Assembly (NCBI GenBank): GCA_022710975.1 | Contig: JAKLGA010000013.1 | Location: 205,363 to 246,837 of the forward strand | Length of the DNA: 41,475 nucleotides | Origin: Myxococcota bacterium | Lineage (GTDB): Bacteria; Myxococcota; B64-G9 | Reading direction: 5' to 3' | Part shown: piece after piece, positions 29,764 through 39,316 of the stretch | Layout: each line of letters starts with the position of its first letter | Position numbering within the stretch: position 1 is the stretch's first letter | The notes under the pieces: generated by a model | What the model saw: the letters and a program-made list of their open reading frames with translations, nothing else | The model's database searches: none | What the model was told of the DNA's origin: nothing | Translations under genes and position numbers: made by a program

Positions 29764-32361
29764 TCAGCGGCCGAGGAAGGCGCGCACCTCGGCGTGCAGG
29801 CCGGCCAGGCGCTCCTTGGCGCGCCAGCCCTCGGCCAGCCGCAGGAAGCTGCCCTTGCGGCCCTCGACCTTGAAGCGCTCGAGGACGCCGCGGTCCTCGA
29901 AGGTGGCCAGGGCGTTGTTCAGCACCTCGCGCGACAGGCTCTCCTGGAAGGAGATGTCGCCGGCCACGAACATGCGGCCGCCGCGCTGCAGCGCGGCGGT
30001 GGTGAAGTCGCGCTCGCTGACCGGCCGCTCGAGCAGGCTGTCGAGGTGCAGGGTGGCCAGCGCGTAGGCCTCCAGGAAGTGCTCCTGCAGGCCCCGGAGG
30101 AAACGCCGCAGCTCGACGCCCTCGGGCGTCTTGAGCACGAAGCCCTCCTCGAGCCGCAGCATGCCCTCGGTCTGCAGCTCGCCCAGCGTCTTGCCCAGCT
30201 CCTCGTCGAAGTACTTCTCCGAGCGGAAGAAGAACTCGTGCTTGAACAGCCGGGTCAGCGCGCGGATGCGCTCCTCGAGCGGCCCCCGCGGCACGGCCTC
30301 GACGGTGAAGCTCTCCAGCGCGGTGACCACCATGGCGGCGTTGACGAAGTGGTGCTGCAGGTTGTTGCGATAGTAGTCGAGCGCCAGCCGCCTGCGCGCC
30401 ACGGGCGCGTACACCAGCTCCGCGCCGGCGCTCTGCATGGTGAGCAGCCCGTCGTGGGAGAAGCGCGCGGCCGCCTCCGCCAGCGCGCGCTCGAAGTCGC
30501 CGAGCGTGGCCGACAGGCGCGCGTCGCGCCGTCGCACCCAGGCGATCAGCCAGCGGGCGCGGGCCACCAGCTCGGTGCGGGTCATGCCTCGCCGGCGGTG
30601 GGTGAGCAGGCTCATGGCCACCAGGGCCGAGGGGGTGACGGTGGCCACCGAGTTGATCTCGTACAGCACCCGGTGGGCCAGCGCCTGCACCAGCTCGCGC
30701 TTGCGCTCCTCGGGCAGGTCGCGCTCCTCCGAGCCGCGCTCGGCCAGGTACTCGCGCACGGACAGCGCCTCGCCGATCTGCACGTAGATCTTGCCGTACT
30801 TCGAGCGCAGCGCCTGGCTCGAGCGCAGCAGGCCGGCCACGTCCTCCTTGCGCTTCTCGCCGCCCGAGAGCTCGTGCAGGTAGGAGCGGCTCTCGACCAC
30901 CTTCTCGTAGTCGATGGAGATCGGCATGATCTGCACGTCGGGGCTGTCGCCCTCGAGGTAGGCCTCCACCAGCCAGGACAGGATGCCGAAACGGGGGGGC
31001 AGCAGCTTGCCCGTGCGGCTACGGCCGCCCTCCAGGAAGAACTCGATGGGGAAGCCCTCCTTCATCACGTGCCTGAGGTAGGTGCGGAAGACCACCGGGT
31101 AGAGCGCGTCGCCCTTGAAGGAGCGGCGCAGGAAGAAGGCGCCCGAGTGGCGGAAGATGGGCCCCATCGGCCAGAAGCTCAGGTTGACCCCCGCGGCGAT
31201 GTGGGGCAGGGGCACGCGGTACTTCAGGCAGAGCTGGCTCAGCACCAGGTAGTCCACGTGGCTCTTGTGGCTGGGGCAGAACAGCACCGGGGCCTTGCGG
31301 ATGGCCGCGCGGATGCGCTCGAAGCCCGCCTCGTCCACCACGAAGCCCTCGTACATCTTCTTCCAGAAGATGTTGAGCGTCGCGTTGAGCCCCAGCGGCC
31401 ACTGGATGCGGGGCTCGGCGGCGATCTCGTCGAGCAGATCGTGGGCGCGCTTCTTGAGCGCCTCGGTCTTCTGCGCGTCCCCCTGCGCCTCACCCTCCAC
31501 CTGCCGGACGATGTGGGTGTCGGCCAGGATCTCGGCCTTGAACTCGGCGTGCGGGCGGATGCGTGGCCCGGTCACGTCGTACAGCTCGAGCTGCACCTGG
31601 TTGCGCAGCGCCGCCTGCAGAGAGGCGGCCCGCTGGTGAACGTCCTCGTCCTGGTGCTGGCTCAGGAAGGCCTTGACGTCCAGCGGCTCGGACACCTTGA
31701 CCCGCGCCCCCTTGTAGCGCCGCAGCAGCACGAACAGCGAGCGCAGCAGACCCGGCTCGTGGGCCTCGCCGAAGATGGCGTCGGCCAGGTTCTTGTCCTC
31801 GCGCTCGGGGTGGACGTCCCAGACGATGATGTGCGGCACCAGGTAGATCGGCCGCGGCTGGGTGAGCTGGGTCTGGATCACGGTCTCCAGCAGGCTGGCC
31901 TCGGTGGCCGCCAGCGGGTTGGTCAGCGTGGTCGGCCGGCCCAGGAACAGCAGCGCCGCGCGACCGGCGGCCAGGGTGCGCGCCAGCTGACGGGCGGGCT
32001 CGGGCTCCTCCTCGTCCAGGCCCCCGGCGTCCTCGTCCCCCAGCTTGCGCAGGCGCTCCCACAGCAGGGAGATCGGCTGCACCAGCACCGGATCCAGCCC
32101 GTTGACGAAGCGCGCCAGCGGCAACCCGTGGTGTGTGCACACGTAGTTGAGGTACAGGAAGTTGATCAGGTTGGCCGAGCGGGACAGGTACACCAGGGTG
32201 CCCTGGCCGGACAGCTCCTTCATGCGCGCGATGGCCGCCGGCGGAAAGGGGATGGGGGCGAAGTAGCGGGCGAAGAAGGAGCGCAGGAAGGGCCCGTAGT
32301 GGTCGTGCATCGCCACGGGCGGCAGCTCGCCTGGCTGTTCCTGCGCGCTCCTCTCGTCCAT
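29764..32361 (-). CDS. plsB: Glycerol-3-phosphate 1-O-acyltransferase (PlsB)
   Basis: An 865-residue peripheral membrane enzyme that transfers acyl groups from acyl-CoA or acyl-ACP to sn-glycerol-3-phosphate, the first step of phospholipid synthesis. Block I is CPSHKSHVDYL with the HX4D motif His365-Asp370, block II is FFLRRSFKGDALYP, and block III is FFLEGGRSRTGKLLPP. Length fits the long PlsB type (E. coli 807 residues), with a large N-terminal region containing an acidic DEEEPEP insert. The ATG at 32361 follows GGGAGG; the upstream extension lacks support. Divergent from a small exported protein gene. Confidence 0.93.
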   Translation of the reverse strand: MDERSAQEQPGELPPVAMHDHYGPFLRSFFARYFAPIPFPPAAIARMKELSGQGTLVYLSRSANLINFLYLNYVCTHHGLPLARFVNGLDPVLVQPISLLWERLRKLGDEDAGGLDEEEPEPARQLARTLAAGRAALLFLGRPTTLTNPLAATEASLLETVIQTQLTQPRPIYLVPHIIVWDVHPEREDKNLADAIFGEAHEPGLLRSLFVLLRRYKGARVKVSEPLDVKAFLSQHQDEDVHQRAASLQAALRNQVQLELYDVTGPRIRPHAEFKAEILADTHIVRQVEGEAQGDAQKTEALKKRAHDLLDEIAAEPRIQWPLGLNATLNIFWKKMYEGFVVDEAGFERIRAAIRKAPVLFCPSHKSHVDYLVLSQLCLKYRVPLPHIAAGVNLSFWPMGPIFRHSGAFFLRRSFKGDALYPVVFRTYLRHVMKEGFPIEFFLEGGRSRTGKLLPPRFGILSWLVEAYLEGDSPDVQIMPISIDYEKVVESRSYLHELSGGEKRKEDVAGLLRSSQALRSKYGKIYVQIGEALSVREYLAERGSEERDLPEERKRELVQALAHRVLYEINSVATVTPSALVAMSLLTHRRRGMTRTELVARARWLIAWVRRRDARLSATLGDFERALAEAAARFSHDGLLTMQSAGAELVYAPVARRRLALDYYRNNLQHHFVNAAMVVTALESFTVEAVPRGPLEERIRALTRLFKHEFFFRSEKYFDEELGKTLGELQTEGMLRLEEGFVLKTPEGVELRRFLRGLQEHFLEAYALATLHLDSLLERPVSERDFTTAALQRGGRMFVAGDISFQESLSREVLNNALATFEDRGVLERFKVEGRKGSFLRLAEGWRAKERLAGLHAEVRAFLGR

Positions 32362-32417
32362 GCCCGACCTCCCTGGGACCCAGGAAGATCGCACATCTCG
32401 ACCCGGAGTCAACAGGC

Positions 32418-32446
32418 TTGGTTCGCCGGGCGGCCTTGGGTACAAT
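32418..32446 (+). promoter_or_regulatory. Putative promoter upstream of small exported protein and GatE
   Basis: TTGGTT at 32418-32423, 17-bp spacer, TACAAT at 32441-32446, in the 124-base divergent gap with plsB. The ATG of the small gene is 40 bases downstream. It may also drive gatE, whose start is 32 bases after the small gene's stop. Confidence 0.5.
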
Positions 32447-32485
32447 GGCGCCGGCCCGCCGCCGGGCGGGCAAGAGGAGGAGCGC

Positions 32486-32881
32486 ATGTCCCAGAAGGCG
32501 ACCCTGGTCGTCGCCGCCGTGTGCGGCGCCATCCTGGCCACGGTGCTGAACCTGAGCTTCCAGGTCGCGGCCGCCAGTCCGGACGAGGTGCCGGAGACGC
32601 CCGAGGACGCCACCAAGCCCGAGCCGGTGGCGCCCGACCGGCCGTGGGAGATGCTGGAGTTCGCCCAGCAGATCCCGCTCGAGTGGGGCACGGTGTTCTC
32701 CATCAACCGGGTGGAGAAGGCCGGCGAGTCCTACACCTTCTGGTTCCTGGCCATGGACGGCACGCTGCGCGGGGTGACCACCCGCGAGTTCACCGGCCCC
32801 AACCGCGGCTCGTTCTTCCCCGAGGTGTACATCATCAAGCGCCGCTGGAACGACCCCTCCACCCCTGGCCTGGAGCGCTAG
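32486..32881 (+). CDS. Small exported or membrane-anchored protein, unknown
   Basis: A 131-residue protein: the N-terminal hydrophobic segment (residues ~5-28) is a signal peptide or anchor, then an acidic Pro-rich linker, then a compact C-terminal domain of ~75 residues with alternating strands (GTVFSINRV, YTFWFLAMDG, TLRGVTTREF). It starts at ATG 32486 after AGGAGGAG. No family recognised. It lies 32 bases before gatE, which suggests, but does not prove, co-transcription. Confidence 0.65.
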   Translation: MSQKATLVVAAVCGAILATVLNLSFQVAAASPDEVPETPEDATKPEPVAPDRPWEMLEFAQQIPLEWGTVFSINRVEKAGESYTFWFLAMDGTLRGVTTREFTGPNRGSFFPEVYIIKRRWNDPSTPGLER

Positions 32882-32913: not shown

Positions 32914-34833
32914 ATGGACACCTCGAACCCCTTCGCCATGAGCATGGAAGACTTTCGCAAGCTGGGCTTCAAGTCCGGCCTGGAGGTCCACCAGCAGCTC
33001 GCCACCCGCCAGAAGCTCTTCTGCCGCTGCCCGGTCGGCTACCAGCACCGCGAGCACGACGCGGAGCTGCTGCGGCACATGCGCCCGACGCTGAGCGAGC
33101 TCGGCGAGTACGACGGCACGGCGCTGATGGAGTTCAAGACCAAGAAGCAGATCCACTACCAGCTCTTCCAGGACTCGGTGTGCACCTACGAGATGGACGA
33201 CACGCCGCCGTTCCCCATCAACCAGGAGGCCCTGGACGTGGGGCTGCGGGTGGCGCAGCTCTTCGACTGCAACCTGGTGGACGAGCTGCACGTGACCCGC
33301 AAGCAGTACCTGGACGGCAGCATCCCCACCGGCTTCCAGCGCACCGCCATCGTGGGCATCGATGGCGCGCTGCCGCTGGCGGCGCACCCGGCCCGGGTGT
33401 TGCAGATCGGGCTCGAGGAGGACGCCTGCCGCGAGGTGCGGGACGAGGGCCACCACGTCGTCTTCCGCACCGACAGGCTGTCCACGCCGCTGGTCGAGGT
33501 GGTCACCGACGCGAGCCTGCAGGATCCCCGCGAGGTGGTCGAGGCGGCGGAGCTCATCCGCCGCGTGCTGCGCTCCTCCGAGCGCGTGCGGCGCGGGGCG
33601 GGCGCCACCCGCGCAGACGTCAACGTGAGCGTGGCCGGCGGTACGCGGGTGGAGCTGAAGGGAGTGCCGCGCATCGCCTGGTTCGAACGGCTGGTGCGGG
33701 TGGAGGCCTGCCGCCAGCGCCTCCTGCTGGACATCCGCGATCAGCTCAAGCAGCGCGGGGTGAGCCAGCAGCGTTTCCAGGCCGTCATCCGCGACGTGAC
33801 CGAGCTGGCGTCCAAGCTGCGCCTGGCCACGCTGCGCAAGGCGATGAAGCGCGGGGACGTGGTGCTGGGCGTGCACCTGCCCGGGTTCGGCGGGCTGCTG
33901 GACAAACCGGTCCAACCGGGCATCCCCTTCGCCCAGGAGTTCGCCGGCCGGGTGCGGGTGATCGCCTGCCTGGACGAGATGCCGAACCTCGTCCACACCG
34001 ACGACGCGGCCTGCTGGCAGGACCGGGAGCGCGAGCTCAAGAAGCTGCGCGAGGCCTTCGGCGCCAGCCACGTGGACGCCGTGGTGCTGGTGTGGGGCCC
34101 GGCGGAGGACGCCCACACCGCCGCCGACGAGGTGCGACTGCGGGCCCTGGACGCCATCCAGGGCGTGCCCAGCGAGACCCGCCAGGTCTTCGCCGACGGC
34201 ACCAACGACTTCGAGCGCATCCTCCCGGGCCCGGACAGGATGTACCCTGACACCGACTCGCCCCCGGTGCGCATCGAGGCGGAGCGCGTCGCGCGCCTGT
34301 GGGCCGAGCGGCCGCCGCGTCCCTGGGAGCGCCTGGCGCGTTACCGGGAGCTGGGGTTGAGCTCGGTGCTGGCCGACGACGTGCTGCTGCAGGGGCCGCC
34401 CTCGCTGTTCGATCGGCTGCTCGAGCGCACCGGCGCCCGACCCGTGGACCTGGCCGTGGCGCTGGCCCAGCGCCTGGTGAGCCTCACCCGCAAGGGCAAG
34501 CGCCAGGGCCGGCCGTCCGAGGCCGCCCTGGAGGCGCTCTTCCGCCGGCTGGCCGAGGGGCGCCTGGCGCGCGAGGCGCTGCCCGAGCTGCTCGCCAGCA
34601 TGGACGGCGAGGCCAGCGTGGACGCCCTGGTCGCCCGGCTGGCCCCCACGCCGGCCCCGGGGGGCGAGGTGAGCGAGGTGGTCGAGCGGGTGGCGACCAG
34701 GGAGCTCGCGGACTGCAAGGCCACCGACGCCGAGGCCCGCCTGCGCTTCGCCATGGGCAAGGCCATGGAGCAGCTGCGCGGGCGCACCCCCGGCCAGGCC
34801 CTGCGCGCGGCCCTCGCGGCCCGGCTGGGCTAG
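32914..34833 (+). CDS. gatE: Archaeal-type Glu-tRNA(Gln) amidotransferase subunit E (GatE-like)
   Basis: A 639-residue protein, close to archaeal GatE (about 620). It begins with the GatB/GatE catalytic domain (KSGLEVHQQLATRQKLFC, FCRCP; then SELGEYDGTAL, and the long KQYLDGSIPTGFQRTAI). Residues ~310-440 carry the GAD insertion that separates GatE from GatB (KLPGFGGLLDK-like VHLPGFGGLLDK, then DGTNDFERILPGPDRMYPDTD). The C-terminal ~85 residues are a YqeY-like helical tail. In archaea GatE pairs with GatD, which supplies ammonia from asparagine, to amidate Glu-tRNA(Gln). No GatD-like gene is present in this window. The ATG at 32914 follows GGGAGG; the alternative start is 32938. Orphan status is limited to this window. 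Confidence 0.9.
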   Translation: MDTSNPFAMSMEDFRKLGFKSGLEVHQQLATRQKLFCRCPVGYQHREHDAELLRHMRPTLSELGEYDGTALMEFKTKKQIHYQLFQDSVCTYEMDDTPPFPINQEALDVGLRVAQLFDCNLVDELHVTRKQYLDGSIPTGFQRTAIVGIDGALPLAAHPARVLQIGLEEDACREVRDEGHHVVFRTDRLSTPLVEVVTDASLQDPREVVEAAELIRRVLRSSERVRRGAGATRADVNVSVAGGTRVELKGVPRIAWFERLVRVEACRQRLLLDIRDQLKQRGVSQQRFQAVIRDVTELASKLRLATLRKAMKRGDVVLGVHLPGFGGLLDKPVQPGIPFAQEFAGRVRVIACLDEMPNLVHTDDAACWQDRERELKKLREAFGASHVDAVVLVWGPAEDAHTAADEVRLRALDAIQGVPSETRQVFADGTNDFERILPGPDRMYPDTDSPPVRIEAERVARLWAERPPRPWERLARYRELGLSSVLADDVLLQGPPSLFDRLLERTGARPVDLAVALAQRLVSLTRKGKRQGRPSEAALEALFRRLAEGRLAREALPELLASMDGEASVDALVARLAPTPAPGGEVSEVVERVATRELADCKATDAEARLRFAMGKAMEQLRGRTPGQALRAALAARLG

Positions 34834-37273: not shown

Positions 37274-39316
37274 ATGCTCCTGCGCCTGAGCGTCTGGTTC
37301 CTGGTTTGCCTGGGGTGGCTGGAGGCGAGCTCGGCCGCGGAGCCGGTCTCGCCCCCGGAGGGGGGCTGGGGCTTCACCGCCGCCGTGCCCTCCCTCTGCC
37401 CCGAGGGCACCCAGCTCATCGAGGTCGACGGACCGGAGGGCTTCGTCCAGTCCTGCATGGACGAGAACAACGAGGTGCACGGCTGGAGCCTGCGGTTCCA
37501 CGCCAGCGGAGAGCGCCGCGAGCAGTGCGAGGCCAGGCACGGCAGGCTGCACGGCCTGTGCGCCGCATGGTACCCGGGCGGCCAGCTCCTGCGGCACGAC
37601 GAGTACCGCGACAACGTGCGCGAGGGTCGCTACGCCGAGTGGTTCGAGAACGGCCAGCTCGCGGAGCTGGGCCTATACCGCGCCGGCGAGCCCGAGGGCC
37701 CGTGGGTCCGGTACTTCGAGGACGGACGGGTGCGCGCCCGCGGGTCTTACCAGGCCGGCAAACTGACCGGCGACTGGGAGTACTTCGACCGGGAGGGCAA
37801 GCCGGCCACCCGGGAGGTGTCCGCGCCGCGCCCTGGCTACCCCGGGGAGCGCCCGCCGCCCGCGTGGCTCCGGCTGGAGGGCTCGAGGGTGCCCGAGCCC
37901 TACCGCGTCCCCGGGCCGAGGGTGGGAGGGCCCTTCCTGAAGGGCCGTCCCCTGGTGGAGGCCCCGGAGCTCGGCCAGGTGCTCGCGCTCGCCGTGCGGG
38001 ACTGCCTGCCCGAGCCGGGCGAGGAGATCGTGCTGGTCGGCCGGCGCGGCGGGCTCGTGCTGAGCTCGACCGGAGCCCGGCTGGCCGCCCCTCGCTGGCC
38101 GCTCGGCCTGCAGACCGCGCAGGTCGTGGATCTGGGGGGCGAGCTGGGGTGCCAGGTGGTGGGCGGCGGGCTGCAGGGGCGGGTGGTCCGCCCGGCGGCG
38201 TCCGGCGACAGCCGGGTCCAGCCTGGCTGGGAAACCTGCTGGCTGCTCGTGGCCCTGGGGCTGGACGGCACCAAGCGCTTCGAGCTCCAGCTGGCCGACG
38301 GACCGGCCGAGGTTGCGGCGCTGGACCTGGACGGCGACCGGACCCAGGAGCTCGTCCTGGCCGAGCCGGGCGCGGAGGGCCTGACGGTGCTCGATCCGCA
38401 GGGGCAGGTGCGCGCTCGCTGGCAGGCGCAGGGCGTTCGGCGGCTCCAGGCCCTCGACCCGGAGCCCCGCGGGGGTGCGCGGCTCGCGGGCCTCGACCGC
38501 TTCGGGCAGCTCCAGGTCCTGGATCACGCCGGCCGCGCGGTCCTGAGGCGGGGGCTGGACGACGGCGCGGCCGGGAGCGTCGCGTGCCGCTGGCCCGACG
38601 CGCAGGCGCCGCTCCACCTGGCCTACCTGCACGAGACACGTGTACGCCTGGTGTCCGCCGGGGGCGAGGTCGTGGCCGAGCACGAAGCCCCGCTGGCCTT
38701 CACCGACTGGAGCACTTCGCTGCGCGCCGCGCCGGTCGCCCTGCGGCCGGGCAGATTGGCCAACCTCGCCAGCCTGGTGGGCCTCCGCCCCGCCTGGAAC
38801 CGGAGCCTGCTGCTCGTCACCTCTCCCGACGGGCAGCTCGTCCACCTCGAGGTGCTCGAGGGTCAGGCCGGCGCGCTGGCCGCGCGGGCGCGCGGCAGGC
38901 TCGGTGAGGAGCTGCTGGTGGCCGTGGGGCCGGGGCGGGTGTGGGCGTACACGCTGGATCAGGGCCTTCTGGCGGGCGCCCTCGAGGGAGCCCGGCGAGC
39001 CCTGTCGGGTCAGGACGGCGCGCCGAGCGAGCTCGAGCTCGGGCTCGGAAACGACTCCCAGGAGATCCGAGACGGCTGGTGGAGGTGGACCGCCTACCTG
39101 ACCGGCGACGCCGAGACCCTGGCCCGGGTGGCGTGCGTGGAGTACCTGCTGGTGGAGGGCTTCCCGGATCCGCTCCGTCTGGTGTGCGCCCGCGGACAGG
39201 ACGGGCACGCCTTCCCCCTGACCATGCAGGGCTGGGGGACCTTCGTGCTCCGGGCGCGGGCGTACCTGTCCTCAGGGCTGGCGCAGGACCTGCGCCACGA
39301 GCTAGTCTTCGAGTGA
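37274..39316 (+). CDS. Exported MORN-repeat protein with propeller-like C-terminal part
   Basis: A 680-residue protein with a Sec signal peptide (residues 1-~22, ends SSA-AEP). Residues ~60-175 carry about four MORN-2/YwqK-type repeats, for example GRYAEWFENGQLAELGLYRAG and GPWVRYFEDGRVRARGSY. The remaining ~480 residues have repeated strands of VVDLGGEL and AALDLDGDRTQELVLAEPG type, suggesting an FG-GAP/VCBS-like propeller, where Asp-x-Asp-Gly-Asp loops could bind calcium. The ATG at 37274 follows GAGGGAGGG. Function unknown. Only 28 bases separate it from the trypsin-like gene, so the two are likely co-transcribed. Confidence 0.75.
   Translation: MLLRLSVWFLVCLGWLEASSAAEPVSPPEGGWGFTAAVPSLCPEGTQLIEVDGPEGFVQSCMDENNEVHGWSLRFHASGERREQCEARHGRLHGLCAAWYPGGQLLRHDEYRDNVREGRYAEWFENGQLAELGLYRAGEPEGPWVRYFEDGRVRARGSYQAGKLTGDWEYFDREGKPATREVSAPRPGYPGERPPPAWLRLEGSRVPEPYRVPGPRVGGPFLKGRPLVEAPELGQVLALAVRDCLPEPGEEIVLVGRRGGLVLSSTGARLAAPRWPLGLQTAQVVDLGGELGCQVVGGGLQGRVVRPAASGDSRVQPGWETCWLLVALGLDGTKRFELQLADGPAEVAALDLDGDRTQELVLAEPGAEGLTVLDPQGQVRARWQAQGVRRLQALDPEPRGGARLAGLDRFGQLQVLDHAGRAVLRRGLDDGAAGSVACRWPDAQAPLHLAYLHETRVRLVSAGGEVVAEHEAPLAFTDWSTSLRAAPVALRPGRLANLASLVGLRPAWNRSLLLVTSPDGQLVHLEVLEGQAGALAARARGRLGEELLVAVGPGRVWAYTLDQGLLAGALEGARRALSGQDGAPSELELGLGNDSQEIRDGWWRWTAYLTGDAETLARVACVEYLLVEGFPDPLRLVCARGQDGHAFPLTMQGWGTFVLRARAYLSSGLAQDLRHELVFE

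Follow-up and report, generated by a model that had tools for sequence, protein, structure and literature searches.

A bacterial-type GatE encoded with GatD and GlnRS in a Myxococcota genome, and its predicted role in forming Gln-tRNA(Gln)

The Myxococcota genome considered here encodes both subunits of GatDE, intact in sequence, together with GlnRS; no GatB was found in it, and the two subunits occur together across the genomes surveyed. The best reading of these data, to which we assign a probability of roughly 0.6, is that of a working GatDE which would amidate Glu-tRNA(Gln) to Gln-tRNA(Gln) and so provide a second or repair route in addition to GlnRS. The amidation is predicted from the family membership of GatE and GatD, and the second or repair role is suggested by the presence of GlnRS. 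Excerpts of earlier accounts describe a different distribution: GatDE is now found only in archaea and all known archaea lack GlnRS (PMC9499178), GatDE is exclusively archaeal and even an archaeal signature protein (PMC8762117; PMC9499178), and no bacterium was known in 2014 to carry both routes to Gln-tRNA(Gln) (PMC4206432).

The window, i.e. the whole stretch of 41,475 nucleotides analysed, carries gatE as a single ORF without interruption. The features of the gene are the following:

32914..34833 (+): gatE, bacterial-type GatE, 639 residues plus stop, assigned by the NCBIfam GatE models and its place in the tree
32974..34290 (+): GatB/GatE catalytic domain, residues 21-459, split by the GAD insertion (PF02934, 149.5 bits)
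33298..33345 (+): loop RKQYLDGSIPTGFQRT, residues 129-144, with the bacterial-type letters Q131, Y132, I137 and P138 in clade-diagnostic columns
33835..34122 (+): GAD insertion domain, residues 308-403 (PF02938, 24.4 bits, cut-off 23.4)
34225..34257 (+): motif PGPDRMYPDTD, residues 438-448, in which D446 is diagnostic
34513..34827 (+): YqeY-like tail, residues 534-638 (PF02637, 20.7 bits, below the gathering score of 27)

The protein scores 530.1 bits against the curated equivalog model NF003107 (cut-off 456) and 468.4 bits against TIGR00134 (cut-off 319.55). Its nearest solved chains are the archaeal GatE proteins 2d6f (residues 13-634) and 1zq1 (residues 13-631), and the YqeY-like tail aligns up to the end of 2d6f_C. 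The best GatB model reaches 126.6 bits against a cut-off of 338 and all GatB cut-offs lie well above the scores obtained, which rules out a misread GatB. The sequence-only reading had called the gene a GatE from its GAD insertion and its PGPDRMYPDTD motif and had placed it in a bacterial genome. Call, motif and bacterial host all stand: both curated models and the GAD insertion pass their thresholds, and a match to GatB profiles alone, the outcome which that reading held against the call, is the reverse of what was seen. Third-position GC is 0.972 in gatE, 0.972 in gatD and 0.973 in glnS, so that gatE matches its genome. The neighbours of gatE in the window (a GPAT-like acyltransferase, an FAD-binding protein, a nitronate monooxygenase family protein and rubrerythrin) look unrelated to it. 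A small protein that likely carries a membrane anchor is encoded at 32360-32881 (+), on the strand of gatE, and its end lies 32 bases 5' of that gene; no Pfam match was obtained for the residues from 32441 onwards. Further downstream, 37274-39316 (+) encodes a protein with a terminal prokaryotic YEATS domain and MORN-type repeats.

The genome comprises 7.13 Mb in 29 contigs, with a completeness of 98.6% and a contamination of 2.1%. The 41-kb window is without gatD, as the sequence-only reading had observed. That reading went on to call gatE an orphan, and this part is contradicted by a different contig, C20, which carries a full-length gatD (G000:C20:7122-8510) whose product scores 475 bits against TIGR02153 (cut-off 324). 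The nearest solved chains to this GatD are archaeal GatD proteins (382 and 377 bits), and it retains the asparaginase motifs aligned in both of them, which we take to be catalytic. Since GatD is encoded in the same genome, there is no need to invoke ammonia from another glutaminase or a GatE acting alone, as had been suggested. A search of the genome for gatD, gatA/B/C and glnS had also been recommended; it returned gatD and a full-length GlnRS on contig C28 (782 bits, cut-off 425.8), together with an AsnRS on contig C11 (603 bits), and the GatB profile search had gatE as its sole match. GatDE as a stand-in for a missing AsnRS or GlnRS is therefore ruled out here, both synthetases being present; reviews describe canonical GatDE as standing in for an absent GlnRS. 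A single bacterial GluRS is encoded, the only GluRS-like match in the GlnRS profile search, and contig C10 has an ORF (596 residues) that was read by eye as a bacterial AspRS.

According to the proposed mechanism, GatD would release ammonia from an amide donor, and GatE would phosphorylate the Glu carried by misacylated Glu-tRNA(Gln) and then amidate it to Gln-tRNA(Gln). GatDE would thereby rescue Glu-tRNA(Gln) made by GluRS, and it may supply Gln-tRNA(Gln) during a shortage of free Gln. The catalytic activity, the substrate, the formation of Glu-tRNA(Gln) by this particular GluRS and the repair or back-up role are all predictions drawn from sequence. Excerpts of a study of yeast GatB assign E34, H36, E186, T189, N230 and S232 to the ATP and Mg sites (PMC4027206). 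By spacing, in a mapping of our own, these correspond to E24, H26, E195, T198, N237 and S239 of GatE, which belong to 69 columns that are near-invariant in both of the GatE clades described below.

In a tree of 132 GatE rows, 89 bacterial and 12 archaeal rows, the latter from Thermoplasmatota, are split off by a branch of 0.58 with a support of 100; the other side holds 30 archaeal rows with the two solved chains. Bacterial GatE was sampled from the Myxococcota set and from the 80 loci, out of at least 575, that resemble the window most; canonical archaeal GatE was sampled from a single phylum and the two solved chains. Between the clades lies L251 (G323:C214:1950-4300), a long-branch GatE with mixed diagnostic letters. 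A second tree, rooted with ten GatB and built without L251 and without the GatB rows L291, L292 and L293, places canonical archaeal GatE (22 rows, support 98) as sister to the bacterial type (41 rows, support 98). Within the latter, bacteria form one clade (90) and archaea one clade with weak support (58). The window GatE thus falls outside the canonical archaeal clade in both trees (supports 100 and 98). Excluding five archaeal rows that belong to neither clade's core (L243, L246, L249, L250 and L251), 21 diagnostic columns were counted, each with one letter in at least 85% of either clade and the two letters differing. At D446, in YPDTD, the bacterial type has D in 101/101 rows, whereas canonical archaeal GatE has E in 26/26. 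The GatB majority letter at the 21 columns agrees with the bacterial type in two, with the canonical type in four and with neither in 15, a split that rules out a general likeness to GatB. Archaeal GatE of the bacterial type was accompanied by a GatD of the same type in both loci seen (L005, 694 bits, and L020, 700 bits, to the GatD of the window's genome).

Because bacterial GatE forms a separate clade from that of the canonical archaeal GatE sampled and the third-position GC of gatE (0.972) is that of its genome, the data do not support a recent transfer out of the canonical archaea. The sequence-only reading had advised a phylogeny with bacterial homologues, which sets them apart as a clade from canonical archaeal GatE. 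It had also held that a gatD elsewhere in the genome combined with an archaeal donor clade would reduce the genes to a transferred pair; the first was found, and the second was not found among the archaea sampled.

Published excerpts report that the shape of the D-loop is the feature by which GatDE and GatCAB separate tRNA-Gln from tRNA-Glu (PMC4810234), that the D-loop and the A1:U72 pair are the elements recognised by canonical GatDE (PMC9499178) and that the cradle domain of GatB is held to read U1-A72 (PMC4027206). Counted on the sequences, the D-loops of the genome's tRNA-Gln have 9 bases versus 11 and 12 in its two tRNA-Glu. Both tRNA-Gln(UUG) and tRNA-Gln(CUG) are of the bacterial type, with U1-A72 and G73, and neither has the A1:U72 pair of the canonical substrate. 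Since canonical GatDE reads A1:U72, bacterial-type GatE should read the acceptor end differently. Two residues of loop RKQYLDGSIPTGFQRT, Y132 and P138, are common to 10/10 aligned GatB, and most canonical GatE have other letters at these positions; we conjecture that they might do the U1-A72 reading. On the GluRS side, the Arg/Gln position of the anticodon-binding domain, which we take to align with Thermus Arg358, did not split genomes with GlnRS from those without (29 GluRS from other genomes with GatE and that of the window's genome; row L277 looks misaligned at this position). The excerpt of a 2014 study states that this discrimination signature is not general (PMC3927822).

A scan of GTDB species genomes confirmed at least 575 stretches encoding relatives of this GatE, and the best 80, on which the following counts rest, span many bacterial phyla. 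In 64 of these 80 loci gatD lies within the fetched stretch, mostly in the order gatE-gatD: it is no more than 600 bases downstream on the same strand in 54 loci, further downstream in three, upstream on the same strand in four and on the opposite strand in three. The fetched flanks of the same 80 loci (best of at least 575) contain no GlnRS or GluRS gene beside gatE. The two genes are apart in G053, G055 and G066, as in the window's genome, to whose family G053 and G055 belong. In G242 the gatE-gatD pair directly adjoins a divergent glnS, the sole such case in Myxococcota. In three GatE-bearing bacteria (L294, L295 and L296) gltX directly adjoins glnS on the same strand.

Co-occurrence was followed in 50 genomes from the best 80 loci plus the window's genome (n = 51, of which G004 and G016 are archaeal). 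GatD is over its cut-off in 50/51 (the exception being G007), GlnRS in 40, AsnRS in 44 and GatB in 20. Partial GlnRS was found in G025 and G032, and nine genomes are without any GlnRS; seven of these nine have GatB (G005, G013, G015, G019, G020, G021 and G045), which leaves only G006 and G011 with neither. Four chromosome records (G008, G009, G030 and G039) all encode GatE, GatD, GlnRS and AsnRS, with GatB in G030 only. Since GlnRS or GatB accompanies nearly all of them, bacterial GatDE is almost never the sole possible route to Gln-tRNA(Gln). One member of the sample, Caldithrix abyssi isolate HyVt-577 (G017, locus L021), has GatDE and GlnRS while AsnRS and GatB were not found, possibly owing to an assembly gap.

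This company is what makes a changed substrate worth weighing. Bacterial-type GatDE could act on Asp-tRNA(Asn), on another Glu-tRNA or on a non-tRNA carboxylate, which would account for its presence beside a complete Gln route: GlnRS or GatB stands alongside in 49/51 genomes (in two, only a partial GlnRS), and the separate clade with its 21 diagnostic columns and the gene content of G017 agree with a shift of this kind. On the other hand, the ATP and Mg sites are conserved, as are the motifs of GatD and the architecture of GatE, AsnRS is present in 44/51 so that Asn charging is covered in most, and none of the four proteins searched for near gatE is a neighbour pointing distinctly to another pathway. 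We regard a changed substrate as unlikely.

Among 195 Myxococcota genomes GatE is over its cut-off in 12, including 6/9 of the window's own family when the window's genome is counted, and GatD is likewise over its cut-off in 12. The two go together: GatD is found in 11/12 genomes with GatE versus 1/183 without (p = 5e-16). Partial GatD genes occur in G189, a genome with GatE in which the GatD piece is cut by a contig end, and in G058, which has no GatE. GlnRS is present in 147/195 genomes and in 9/12 of those with GatE, the other three being 70-82% complete. GatE and GlnRS are not associated in this phylum (9/12 vs 138/183, p = 1), because GlnRS is common there anyway. Two members of the window's family, G054 and G056, have GlnRS and neither GatE nor a full GatD; that they manage with GlnRS suggests that GatE is dispensable where GlnRS exists.

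In Thermoplasmatota, GlnRS is over its cut-off in 45/292 genomes. In G372, G489 and G351, GlnRS lies on the same contig (C1 in each) as an archaeal-type GluRS (the second match, 312-326 bits), which disfavours contamination; these three archaea have no GatE match and may charge Gln only directly. GatE was searched for in all 45 GlnRS-positive genomes and in 25 GlnRS-negative ones picked among the listed archaeal GluRS matches. It is over its cut-off in 25/25 of the latter versus 19/45 of the former (Fisher p = 2.6e-7), which indicates that the usual role of GatE in this phylum overlaps that of GlnRS. Two GlnRS-bearing archaea retain remnants of GatE, one with its middle missing (G451:C62:3615-4108) and one reduced to a short fragment of the tail that contains a stop (G360:C80:7626-7871). 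The bacterial type, called by a search of all 292 genomes with the window protein, in which a clear gap separates 461 from 369 bits, occurs above this gap in 15 genomes, 12 of them with GlnRS; it is thus found in 12/45 GlnRS-positive genomes versus 3/247 others (p = 1.5e-8, related genomes not being independent). G263 and G272 carry both types. We read these distributions as GlnRS arrival making canonical GatDE dispensable in Thermoplasmatota, with the bacterial type found mainly beside GlnRS. The glnS loci of this phylum (L191-L210, L148 and L149) have a further trait: tRNA-Gln lies beside glnS in 18 of the 20 loci L191-L210, often one per side, and 15 of these 18 include a tRNA-Gln with the bacterial letter G73, the others (L201, L204 and L209) having A73.

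The three remaining bacterial-type genomes, G445, G319 and G298, in which this is the only GatE match and GlnRS is below its cut-off, raise the idea that the type may suffice alone and, by extension, that GluRS and GatDE are the main source of Gln-tRNA(Gln) with GlnRS as the back-up. The completeness of these three genomes, as of the Thermoplasmatota genomes in general, is not stated, however, the relatives without GatE (G054 and G056) keep GlnRS, and the tRNA-Gln of the window's genome are of the bacterial type in both U1-A72 and G73; we judge such an inverted order to be decidedly improbable. That gatE has no present function and has survived by chance, as a relic or passenger, since GlnRS was gained would suit its patchy presence in Myxococcota (12/195) and the decayed copies in G451 and G360. 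Such a relic should hardly look like the window GatE, which shows zero departures at the columns where conservation within the bacterial type reaches 93% or more, nor would GatD and GatE be expected to stay paired even where their genes are apart, and this explanation appears very unlikely. An orphan GatE that draws its ammonia from some unrelated glutaminase, first suggested by the lack of gatD in the window, is scarcely credible given the full GatD in the same genome and GatD in 50/51 GatE genomes of the best-80 sample, its sole escape being a binning error for contig C20, yet the pair is also apart in two genomes of the same family.

The reading of GatDE as a second or repair route for Gln-tRNA(Gln) draws support from GatE and GatD passing their cut-offs, co-occurring and keeping their catalytic columns and motifs, from the shorter D-loops of tRNA-Gln relative to tRNA-Glu and from the overlapping roles of GatE and GlnRS in Thermoplasmatota. 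It is weakened by the U1-A72 pair, by the failure of the GluRS signature to separate genomes, by the two family members that live with GlnRS and without GatE and a full GatD, and by the near-universal second Gln route, which fits a changed substrate as well.

Compared with known systems, the archaeal GatDE of Methanothermobacter thermautotrophicus (2d6f) and Pyrococcus abyssi (1zq1) resemble the present one in both subunits, the GAD insertion, the catalytic motifs and length. They differ in clade, by the 21 diagnostic columns, and in A1:U72, whereas here the host is a bacterium with GlnRS, tRNA-Gln has U1-A72 and G73, and gatD is apart. Bacterial GatCAB has in GatB a homologous catalytic domain, shares tRNA-dependent amidation as its mode of action and has Y132 and P138 in 10/10 GatB; its partners are GatA and GatC, whereas here the partner is GatD, the scores fall below the GatB cut-offs and no GatB was found. 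A functional parallel is the pair of routes to Asn in Bdellovibrio, Deinococcus and Thermus, in which, according to excerpts of the account, direct charging by a synthetase and tRNA-dependent amidation serve one amino acid in one cell (AsnRS with non-discriminating AspRS and GatCAB; PMC4206432). In the present case the amino acid would be Gln and the amidotransferase GatDE.

No description of bacterial GatDE or archaeal GlnRS was found among the titles and abstract openings of the open-licence literature; bacterial GatDE has likely been sighted elsewhere already, since public annotation models name such proteins GatE. We tentatively propose, at somewhat less than even odds, that GatDE of the bacterial type is an old lineage, sister to the canonical archaeal one, which lives alongside GlnRS in bacteria as well as archaea and would form a dual-route or Glu-tRNA(Gln) repair system, not described in the literature found, with its recognition re-tuned from A1:U72 to U1-A72 or with a partly new substrate. 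In their gene content, the genomes analysed here contradict both the restriction of GatDE to archaea and the absence of bacteria with a dual Gln route, and GlnRS in 45/292 Thermoplasmatota stands against the reviews that deny this enzyme to archaea. The genera among the matches listed include Ignavibacterium, Melioribacter and Caldithrix, some of which have cultured members, so that the question of why a cell should keep GlnRS together with a Glu-tRNA(Gln) amidotransferase becomes testable. Finally, the existence of two GatE clades bears on the argument for GatDE in the last common ancestor.
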